A stretch of 64,000 nt of DNA from Paractinoplanes pyxinae (GTDB taxonomy: Bacteria > Actinomycetota > Actinomycetes > Mycobacteriales > Micromonosporaceae), in NCBI RefSeq assembly GCF_026626335.1, contig NZ_JAPNTZ010000020.1, positions 124,001 through 188,000 on the forward strand, given 5' to 3'. Shown in pieces: positions 7,482 to 9,981 of the stretch. The notes beneath the pieces are model-generated. The model saw nothing but the letters and a program-made list of their open reading frames with translations. It did no database searches and had not been told where the DNA came from. The position numbers and the translations under genes were made by a program. Positions within the stretch are counted from its first letter, which is position 1; each line of letters begins with the position of its first letter.

Positions 7482-8117
7482 CTACCGTTCCGCCTCGGCT
7501 TCGTCCCGCTCCCGGAACGCCGGCGGCGCCGCCAGCCCGCGCGCCCACCCGTGCCGGTAGGCGGCCGACCGGCTGGTCTGTCGCGCGATCACGTCGGCGG
7601 GCGGCGCGCCTGCGGCTGATCGGCCGCCGCCGCCCTGGGGCCAGAAGCTCAGCAGGTAGCGGTCCGGGCGCTGGTCCATGTAGGTGTAGTCGTCCTCGGC
7701 GATCTCGTCCGGGTCGAAGAGGCCGAACGGGTTGCGGCCCTCGTCCATGCCGAGGGCGCAGTACCGCACGCGGAAGGCCGGAAGCGGGCCACCGTCGGGC
7801 GCCAGCGGCAGGCGGGCGAGCGAGCCCTGACCCCACGGCACGAGATCCACCGTTGCCGTGGTCGGGTGGAAGGCCACCTCGACCACCTCCTGCCATTCGT
7901 CAGCGGCGGCCGGTGGCTCGGCGTCGTGCAGCTCGATCGTGAAGCGGACCCGCCCGGAATGCGTGCCGGTCATCAGGAGCAGCGCGCCCGGCTCGCCGAC
8001 ACCGCAGAGCCCGTTCGCCTGACCGGCGAACGCGCGGCCCATGTCCGGCAGGTCGCGACTGATCACATAGGCCTGCCCGTAGGCGACCGGAACGAGCCCG
8101 TCGAAGACGATCCGCAT
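7482..8117 (-). CDS. Hypothetical protein
   Basis: A 211-aa protein of unknown function. The frame stays open further upstream, but that part is only Arg/Pro-rich low complexity read from the repeat tract at 8150-8257. The ATG at 8117, beginning MRIVFDGLVPV, is therefore the sensible start. No membrane segment, signal peptide or known motif was found. The composition is that of an ordinary soluble cytoplasmic protein. It ends 22 bases from the convergent isomerase gene. I do not recognise the family. Confidence 0.65.
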   Translation of the reverse strand: MRIVFDGLVPVAYGQAYVISRDLPDMGRAFAGQANGLCGVGEPGALLLMTGTHSGRVRFTIELHDAEPPAAADEWQEVVEVAFHPTTATVDLVPWGQGSLARLPLAPDGGPLPAFRVRYCALGMDEGRNPFGLFDPDEIAEDDYTYMDQRPDRYLLSFWPQGGGGRSAAGAPPADVIARQTSRSAAYRHGWARGLAAPPAFRERDEAEAER

Positions 8118-8149
8118 CGGCCGATCGTGCCACCGATCGCCTGCCCGCG

Positions 8150-8257
8150 GTGGCCGCCGTGGGCGCGGTGGTCGTCGTGGGCGCGCTGGCCGCGGTGGCC
8201 GCCGTGGGCGCGCTGGCCGCCGTGGCCGCCGTGGGCGCGCTGCCCACGGTGCCCGCC
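8150..8257. repeat. 27-bp tandem repeat (GTGGGCGCGCTGGCCGC type)
   Basis: Three head-to-tail 27-bp units begin at 8177, 8204 and 8231, each opening GTGGGCGCGCTG. A diverged copy precedes them at 8150 and related GC-rich triplets run on to about 8325. The whole tract lies between two same-strand hypothetical genes. It would encode Val-Ala-Gly-Leu repeats on one strand and Arg-Pro on the other, but no start or ribosome binding site suggests translation. Probably a minisatellite prone to copy-number change. Confidence 0.8.
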
Positions 8258-8364
8258 GTGGCCGCGCTGGCCGCGGTGGCAGCGGTGGCCGCGGTGGCAG
8301 GCGGGGCCGCGGTGGCCGCGCCAAGCCCAGGGAAAACGCCGACGCAGCCGGGTGGCCGCCGCTT

Positions 8365-8832
8365 TCAGTCGAGTTTGGCTCGTGCCGCGTCGAGGAACGC
8401 CAGGCGGGGGTTCTCCAAGGCGTCCCTCAGCTCGTCGCGCCCGGGGGTTCCCTCCCAGACCGCGCCGTTGAGCATCAAGAAGTAGGCGCGCGCGGCGTCG
8501 TGGACCGGGGGCGGGAACAGCAGGCGGATCATGCGTTCGGCCACCCAGAAACGGTTCATCGTCTCCTGCGCCCGGGCGTGCCACTCGTCGCCCTCTTGCC
8601 AGGTGGGCGGGCGGTCGAACGCGCAGCGCTCGGCCTCGGCCGCCACGCCGACGAAACGCTCGAGCAGGGCCAGCCGCTCGGCCCGGCGCGCCTCCGTCCG
8701 GGCCGCCGCCTGTTTGCCCTCTTCGAGGCGTGCCGTCATGCGCTGCGTTGTCCTCTGCACCAGGTACGACAGTCCGCCGCCGAGCGCGACTCCGCCCAGT
8801 GATGTCAGAGCCGTCCATGTCTCCGCCGCCAT
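8365..8832 (-). CDS. Hypothetical protein with N-terminal membrane anchor
   Basis: A 155-aa protein beginning MAAETWTALTSLGGVALGGG. The first 25 residues form one probable membrane-spanning segment. A basic helical stretch rich in Arg, Glu and Gln follows (about residues 28-55), then a soluble helical region with several Trp and Phe. Continuing the frame upstream would read into the 24/25-bp repeat array, where alternating unit lengths destroy any constant frame, so the ATG at 8832 is preferred. Small one-helix proteins of this layout are common and uncharacterised in actinomycetes. No function is assigned. Confidence 0.65.
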   Translation of the reverse strand: MAAETWTALTSLGGVALGGGLSYLVQRTTQRMTARLEEGKQAAARTEARRAERLALLERFVGVAAEAERCAFDRPPTWQEGDEWHARAQETMNRFWVAERMIRLLFPPPVHDAARAYFLMLNGAVWEGTPGRDELRDALENPRLAFLDAARAKLD

Positions 8833-8895
8833 GCGGGCATGATCCCCGAGCCGGCCGCCGATCGTCGATCCCGTTCCGGTCGCACCGCCGCGCGG

Positions 8896-9121
8896 ATGGA
8901 CGATCCCGCCGCCGCGCGGAGCTGACGATCGCGCCGCCGCACGGGTTGACGATCGCACCGCCGCACGGGTTGACGATCGCACCGCCGCGCGGAGTTGACG
9001 ATCGCGCCGCCACGCGGGTTGACGATCGCGCCGCCGCGCGGAGTTGACGATCGCGCCGCCACGCGGGTTGACAATCGCGCCGCCGCGCGGGTTGACGATT
9101 GCGCCGCTGTGAGGGTTGACG
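8896..9121. repeat. 24/25-bp tandem repeat array ending in the arsR promoter
   Basis: Ten units share the core TTGACGATCGCGCCGCCGCG. The GACGAT-type core recurs at 8899, 8924, 8948, 8972, 8997, 9021, 9046, 9070, 9094 and 9118, giving spacings of 25, 24, 24, 25, 24, 25, 24, 24 and 24. The mixed spacing breaks any reading frame, so this is not a protein repeat. Most units contain TTGAC plus the palindrome CGATCG. The last TTGACG is the -35 hexamer of the arsR promoter. There are no unique spacers, so it is not CRISPR. Confidence 0.92.
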
Positions 9122-9147
9122 AGGCGGTTGGTAAGTCGTAACTTACC
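9116..9147 (+). promoter_or_regulatory. arsR promoter with overlapping operator
   Basis: TTGACG (9116-9121), a 17-base spacer, then TAACTT (9139-9144) make a good sigma-70-type promoter. The inverted repeat GGTAAGT-CGTA-ACTTACC (9130-9147) covers the -10 element and has the form of an ArsR-family operator. The predicted transcription start (about 9151) falls on the GTG start codon at 9152, so the mRNA would be leaderless. The arrangement implies autorepression by the ArsR protein. Confidence 0.82.
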
Positions 9148-9151
9148 GTTC

Positions 9152-9505
9152 GTGGCCACTAACCAAGGGCCCGGCGAACCAGGGCCTGACGGGCCAGGGC
9201 CCGACGGGTGGGAAATTCTCGGGGATCCGAGCCGTCGCGCGATCGTGGAGAGCCTGGCGGTGCGGCCACATGCCGTCGGTGAGCTGGCCGCGCAACTGCC
9301 GATCAGCCGGCCGGCGGTGTCGCAGCATCTGCGCGTGCTCAAGGATGCGGGGCTCGTCGACGACGAGGCCGCGGGCACGCGCCGGGTCTATCGGCTCAAC
9401 CCCGCCGGCGTCTCCGCGCTCCGCGACCAGCTCGACGTGTTCTGGCGGCGGACCCTGGAGGGTTTGCAAGAGATCGTCGAGGAAGCAGACGAGGAGAAGT
9501 CATGA
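9152..9505 (+). CDS. ArsR family winged-helix regulator
   Basis: A 117-aa regulator. The winged HTH is clear: VGELAAQLPISRPAVSQHLR as recognition region, then the wing around AAGTRRVYRLNPAG. No metal-binding Cys pair is seen, so it belongs to the metal-independent ArsR group that often precedes SRPBCC (AHSA1) genes. The GTG at 9152 is chosen because the promoter places the transcription start there; an in-frame TTG at 9116 lies inside the -35 element. It overlaps the next gene by 4 bases (ATGA), so the two are translationally coupled. Probably an autorepressor of the three-gene operon. Confidence 0.88.
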   Translation: MATNQGPGEPGPDGPGPDGWEILGDPSRRAIVESLAVRPHAVGELAAQLPISRPAVSQHLRVLKDAGLVDDEAAGTRRVYRLNPAGVSALRDQLDVFWRRTLEGLQEIVEEADEEKS

Positions 9506-9981
9506 CCGAGGCAGCAACCGAGGTGGTTCTGCGGCAGGTGGTCGTCCGGGCGCCGCAGCAGAAGGCGTTCGAGGTGTTCACCGGGCGCTTCAACGACATC
9601 AAGCCGCGCGACCACACCCTGCTCAGCTCACCGATCGCCGAGACGGTGCTCGAGCCTCGGGTGGGCGGGCGCATCTACGACCGGGCGGAGGACGGCACCG
9701 AGTTCGCCTGGGCCCGCGTCCTGGCCTTCGAGCCGCCCGACCGGCTGGTCTTCAGCTGGGACATCGGCGTGCAGTGGGAGCTCGAGACGGATCCGGCCAA
9801 CGCCAGCGAGGTCGAGGTCCGCTTCATCGCCGAGGCCCCCGACCGTACGCGGGTGGAATTGGAACACCGCCACCTCGACCGGCACGGCCCGGGCTGGCGC
9901 GCCCTGATCGACCAGCTCGGCAACGACCAGGGCTGGCCGCTGTACCTGAGCCGCTTCGCCGCCCTCTTCGGGGAAGGGTAG
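9502..9981 (+). CDS. SRPBCC (AHSA1-like) domain protein
   Basis: A 159-aa START/Bet v1-like ligand-binding fold protein of the AHSA1 type, recognisable from the N-terminal VVVRAPQQKAFEVFTG, the central GGRIYDRAEDG and the C-terminal WRALIDQLGNDQGWPLYLSRF helix. These proteins are usually coupled to a small ArsR regulator, as here by a 4-base overlap. They may bind hydrophobic ligands or act as accessory factors; no enzyme activity can be assigned. The next gene starts 2 bases after its stop. Function in this strain is unknown. Confidence 0.85.
   Translation: MTEAATEVVLRQVVVRAPQQKAFEVFTGRFNDIKPRDHTLLSSPIAETVLEPRVGGRIYDRAEDGTEFAWARVLAFEPPDRLVFSWDIGVQWELETDPANASEVEVRFIAEAPDRTRVELEHRHLDRHGPGWRALIDQLGNDQGWPLYLSRFAALFGEG

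Follow-up and report, generated by a model that had tools for sequence, protein, structure and literature searches.

A tandem array ending in the -35 element of a conserved arsR promoter in Paractinoplanes pyxinae

Bacterial intergenic minisatellites are direct, imperfect arrays of 10-60 bp units that are private to a locus and have diverged edge units. REP and BIME elements are also intergenic and G+C-rich, and are dispersed repeats. In Mycobacterium tuberculosis, the part of the source considered here (PMC12817950) describes tandem repeats of 54-58 bp with copy-number variation at three promoters (lpdA, cysG and dop); for lpdA and cysG, the repeats lie upstream of leaderless promoters.

Here we analyzed a ten-copy tandem array of Paractinoplanes pyxinae, located in a window of 64,000 nucleotides (contig NZ_JAPNTZ010000020.1, positions 124,001 to 188,000). 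The array has the minisatellite features listed above and differs from that class solely in ending in a promoter -35. It is intergenic and G+C-rich like REP/BIME repeats, which it differs from in occupying one locus only and in folding no better than shuffled sequence. The likeness to the lpdA and cysG repeats is that of an actinobacterial tandem repeat directly upstream of a leaderless promoter. As far as that source goes, however, the M. tuberculosis units are 54-58 bp of promoter sequence with demonstrated variation between strains (PMC12817950), whereas the 24/25-bp units described here copy the -35 alone and are known from one genome. We consider it quite probable that the array is a species-private, fast-turnover intergenic minisatellite that acts mainly as a passive spacer between divergent promoters.

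The array and the genes on its two sides

TRF placed the array at window positions 8880-9122 of the forward strand (period 24, score 347, 87% matches), with the consensus TCGCGCCGCCGCGCGG(A)GTTGACGA. The original prediction had counted ten units at 8896..9121; the count stands, and the true extent is slightly longer. It had also described alternating 24- and 25-bp periods; the actual unit lengths do not alternate strictly (24, 25, 24, 24, 25, 24, 25, 24, 24 and 24 bp, in order). The 25-bp form has an extra A ahead of GTTGAC (GCTGAC in unit 2). TTGAC does recur in most units, as predicted: eight of the ten contain it, and units 1 and 2 read TGGACG and CTGACG instead. The edge units 1, 2 and 10 carry 3, 3 and 4 changes relative to the consensus and the remaining seven carry 0-2; diverged edge units are typical of other minisatellites too. 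The 49-bp pair formed by units 5-6 is repeated as units 7-8 with two changes in total, which suggests that blocks, besides single units, may have been copied. Neither strand of the array folds better than its dinucleotide shuffles (z +2.6 and +1.6), and hairpin-driven slippage was rejected for this reason. The array consists of direct tandem units in the range of about 10-60 bp, above chance, and lies outside genes, between the conserved starts of two divergent genes, though an open frame crosses it.

The last unit shares its TTGACG (9116..9121, forward strand) with the -35 of a gene for an arsR-family regulator, and this element is conserved in array-less homologues. The regulator (9152..9505, forward strand; 117 aa; PF01022, E=1.8e-15; NF033788, E=5.2e-23) starts at a leaderless-type GTG, 7 bases past the -10 TAACTT (9139..9144, forward strand). 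The -10 follows the -35 after a spacer of 17 bp, as the original prediction had it. Calling it a good -10 was generous, since TAACTT matches TATAAT at three of six positions and a generic scan of 8780-9250 for promoters and terminators returned nothing, the arsR promoter included. The -10 is nevertheless credible because it is conserved in homologues. The palindrome GGTAAGTCGTAACTTACC over the -10 (9130..9147), also conserved in homologues, suits an ArsR dimer and is a candidate operator; its core occurs once in the genome at up to 2 mismatches, compared with two sites for the backwards control. A third half-site, ACTAACC (9158..9164), lies just inside the coding start; at each of the six other syntenic loci it is ACTTACC. 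Overlapping the arsR stop is a gene for an AHSA1/SRPBCC-like protein (9502..9981, forward strand; PF08327, E=4.1e-11), which adjoins arsR in all seven syntenic loci and is its presumed operon partner. Window positions 9130-9164 and their homologues represent a conserved leaderless-type ArsR-AHSA1 module, with the palindrome GGTAAGTCGTARCTTACC over the -10 and the third half-site. Literature matches listed for ArsR with SRPBCC, ArsR autorepressors and leaderless ArsR contained nothing on this locus. As a separate observation, a 15-bp repeat of about 3 copies occupies 9161-9208, in the start of arsR, and owing to it the N-terminal stretch is 30 bases longer than in P. polyasparticus (L039), when the two are compared by eye.

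On the other side of the array lies a divergent gene of unknown function, MAAE (8365..8832, reverse strand; 155 aa), with homologues in 15 of 67 genus genomes, its own included, and no Pfam or NCBIfam match at E<=0.001. Directly left of the array is the conserved block GTCGATCCCG (8864..8873, reverse strand). All seven syntenic loci have it as GTCGA[TC][CT]CC[GA], at a distance of 30-35 bp from the start of the gene, and it is possibly the -35 region of that gene. Another tandem array, of 9-bp units (19.6 copies, score 189), was observed at 8145-8320, between the script-predicted start of a reverse-strand gene (7482-8117) and position 8365, where the divergent gene ends.

Homologous loci with and without an array

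We compared 77 arsR homologue loci, all from genomes other than that of the window. The -35/-10 pattern is present in 57 of them, with a spacer of 17 (32 loci) or 18 (25 loci) and a GTG 7 bases (52) or 6 bases (5) past the -10; many of the 20 loci that do not show it are distant arsR homologues. Upstream of each of the 77 homologues, 600 bp (full length for 74) were searched for arrays with at least 4 copies, a period of at least 6 and a score of at least 100. Four loci carry one (L044, L048, L064 and L114), and none of the 77 has an array of the window unit. At L048, in P. deccanensis, a 20-bp x 11.9 array lies 274-512 bp upstream of the arsR match; a search of that locus for the divergent gene yielded no homologue. 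Since the promoter is present in array-less homologues, it is independent of the array: the -35 is older and the array is the newcomer. The original prediction, according to which the last unit becomes the arsR -35, was correct in linking the array to the -35 and had the direction backwards.

Seven of the 15 genomes with a homologue of the divergent gene (67 genus genomes searched) have it back to back with arsR. Measured from the conserved GTCGA[TC][CT]CC block to TTGAC, the interval is 4 bp in G034, 6 bp in both P. lichenicola (G033) and G060, 39 bp in P. polyasparticus (G011), 170 bp in P. aksuensis (G061), 242 bp in the window and 294 bp in P. ovalisporus (G078). G061 has the same intergenic sequence as L046, from which its species name is taken. 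The three longest contain some repeat, namely a 6-mer repeat with a TRF score of 68 in P. aksuensis, the ten-unit array in the window and an unrelated 24-bp array of 8.8 copies in P. ovalisporus; the other four have no array. The search for the same array in related genomes that the original prediction had proposed was carried out here at the species level, and the window unit is absent from all six other syntenic loci.

In two of the three loci with a repeat, a 24-bp period begins directly after the same conserved block, which could reflect a local cause or a shared ancestor that has since diverged. The P. ovalisporus and window units are alike at 14 of 24 positions, no better than chance (P=0.17), and kinship between them was rejected. 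In a tree of 12 divergent-gene proteins, the window and P. aksuensis are paired (92/90), with P. polyasparticus next (94/95), and P. ovalisporus stands apart, grouped with G033, G060 and G034 (99/96). The two 24-bp arrays thus belong to separate branches of this tree, and their units resemble each other no more than expected by chance; the simplest reading is that they were born separately. A shared ancestral array that diverged in two branches and was lost in others is a less simple but possible alternative. With 11 of 358 divergent gaps carrying an array (see below), the chance of at least one further array among the six other syntenic loci is about 17% by simple arithmetic. The recurrence at this locus is thus not significant, and a local hotspot was rejected. 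A slippage hotspot, as the original prediction had suggested, is plausible for minisatellites as a class, given that the repeats at this site differ between related species.

We envisage that the array grew, by slippage or unequal recombination, through the copying of DNA that probably took in the flank on the 5' side of the -35 (GGGTTGACGA). Copying of this flank would place a -35-like element, without a -10, in each unit. The flank may accordingly have been the seed of the array; when the array-less interval of P. polyasparticus was aligned with the unit, it did no better than shuffles (P=0.16). Growth would be tolerated solely upstream of the -35, since an insertion further downstream would disrupt the spacing of the promoter, its operator or the leaderless start. 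The point at which the array stops makes sense under selection, as everything from the -35 onward is constrained. The most likely effect would be a passive one, in that the divergent promoter is shifted about 240 bp from the arsR promoter, and we expect the influence of the array on expression to be weak.

Regulatory and coding readings of the array

Strain-variable copy number could instead tune transcription of arsR or of the divergent gene, which we regard as unlikely. The array adjoins the -35 of a leaderless-type promoter, and the repeats found at this site differ between related species. A parallel exists in M. tuberculosis, where the part of the source considered here describes copy-number change of repeats directly upstream of leaderless promoters (PMC12817950). 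However, four of the seven syntenic loci have no array, and it is only the -35, not the whole promoter, that is repeated. A multiplied promoter would have a -35 and a -10 in every unit; this holds for one unit in ten, the final TTGACG being the only one of the ten TTGAC-like elements with a TANNNT at 16-18 bp. The same lack of any TANNNT at this distance in the other nine speaks against the RNA polymerase trap put forward in the original prediction.

Very unlikely, in our view, is that the units are arrayed binding sites for a transcription factor or a nucleoid protein, another function that had been proposed for the array. The units do share a regular TTGACGATCG core, and the 11-mer GTTGACGATCG occurs 46 times in the genome, five of them in the array, compared with no occurrence of the pattern read backwards. 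This control is not a fair one because the backwards pattern contains CTAG, which is rare in such genomes. Furthermore, on the opposite strand the 11-mer can be read as ATC GTC AAC, a run of codons common in GC-rich genes. The longer unit is arrayed at this locus only, none of the six other syntenic loci has it, and the mean of 24.3 bp per unit corresponds to 2.31 turns, so that sites would not be helically phased on one face of the DNA. These observations argue against the binding-site proposal.

Finally, it is highly unlikely that translation of the divergent gene begins beyond the array and gives its protein an N-terminal extension encoded by the repeats. In favour of this reading, the frame of that gene is open through the entire array (340 aa), and in P. 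ovalisporus an open frame of 253 aa and the script gene call extend into an array whose 24-bp period preserves the frame. Against it, the 25-bp units here switch the frame and give three different peptides, three of the seven intervals (242, 170 and 4 bp) are not divisible by 3, the conserved start of the gene lies between the array and the gene body, and long open frames are frequent by chance at 70% G+C. The statement in the original prediction that the array cannot be a protein repeat was too strong, as the reverse-strand frame stays open across it, each 25-bp unit shifting the frame and the three shifts summing to 3. The array is still read as non-coding, because relatives share the start of the divergent gene on the near side of the array and the interval ranges from 4 to 294 bp among them.

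Tandem arrays in the genome and the genus

No second array of the window unit was found in the genome of the window, where the long unit occurs five times in the array and once, as a single copy, on another contig (C18). A REP family would have many dispersed copies in the genome; the array occupies one locus only. A dispersed element was therefore rejected, and with it the possibility, raised in the original prediction, of a REP-type family elsewhere. Parts of the array gave short matches at E<=0.001 in 55 of the 67 genus genomes, its own included, mostly one match apiece. The one match that was read (L125) encodes by eye, on the opposite strand, VNPWGGAIAIGHP, which we take to be a thiolase-like motif; on that reading, this match is a coding look-alike and no relative of the array.

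To estimate how frequent such arrays are, we searched six 400-kb samples (2.4 Mb), five from genus genomes, including that of the window minus the window itself, and one from a genome of another family. Arrays classed as non-coding, with a score of at least 150, a period of at least 12 and at least 4 copies, numbered 15, 11, 18, 4, 11 and 9 per sample (68 in total), with contig ends beginning 12 of the 20 own-genome stretches and 19 of the 20 P. ovalisporus stretches; base-shuffled versions of the six samples contained none by the same criteria. Arrays lie in 49 of 1011 predicted gaps of at least 60 bp (11 of 358 divergent, 22 of 488 co-directional and 16 of 165 convergent). All these counts, those per sample included, are rough, because the gene calls came from a simple codon-based script, which took the P. 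ovalisporus array at this locus for coding sequence. Arrays are rarer in divergent gaps than in convergent ones (P=0.0025), also when only gaps of 200-800 bp are considered (4 of 150 and 11 of 77, respectively, P=0.0015). The array studied here is thus somewhat unusual in lying in a divergent gap.

When the 68 units were compared at E<=0.001, only two groups matched internally and none matched the window unit. One group is a 68-70 bp family from the genome of the window and P. ovalisporus, and the other consists of two neighbouring arrays in G047. The former (L166:15075-15558, L166:16295-16714 and L200:13295-13623) is common to the two genomes, unlike the private arrays. Most arrays look private, within the limit that short units set on unit-to-unit comparison. 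The sampled density of 10-45 arrays per Mb corresponds, very roughly, to 100-500 such arrays per genome. Judged by title, or by title and start of abstract, none of the literature matches listed deals with the intergenic minisatellite load of Actinoplanes-type genomes. The array studied here is one among many mostly private intergenic minisatellites and looks ordinary.

On its own, the array is of little importance. What the survey indicates is that Actinoplanes-type genomes carry intergenic minisatellites in large numbers, most of them private. A further proposal, which we hold to be doubtful, concerns the promoters that the repeats separate. The putative -35 regions of the back-to-back promoters would nearly touch in three related species (4-6 bp), where the two promoters may compete for RNA polymerase; the unrelated repeats that recur between them in some lineages (170-294 bp) would then turn a mutually exclusive pair into two independent promoters. 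If this is true, divergent genes of the genus would be open to rewiring through the birth of a repeat. The syntenic loci, which combine one conserved promoter with three repeat contents and intervals of between 4 and 294 bp, form a clean natural series in which to ask whether divergent promoters are influenced by minisatellites lying between them.
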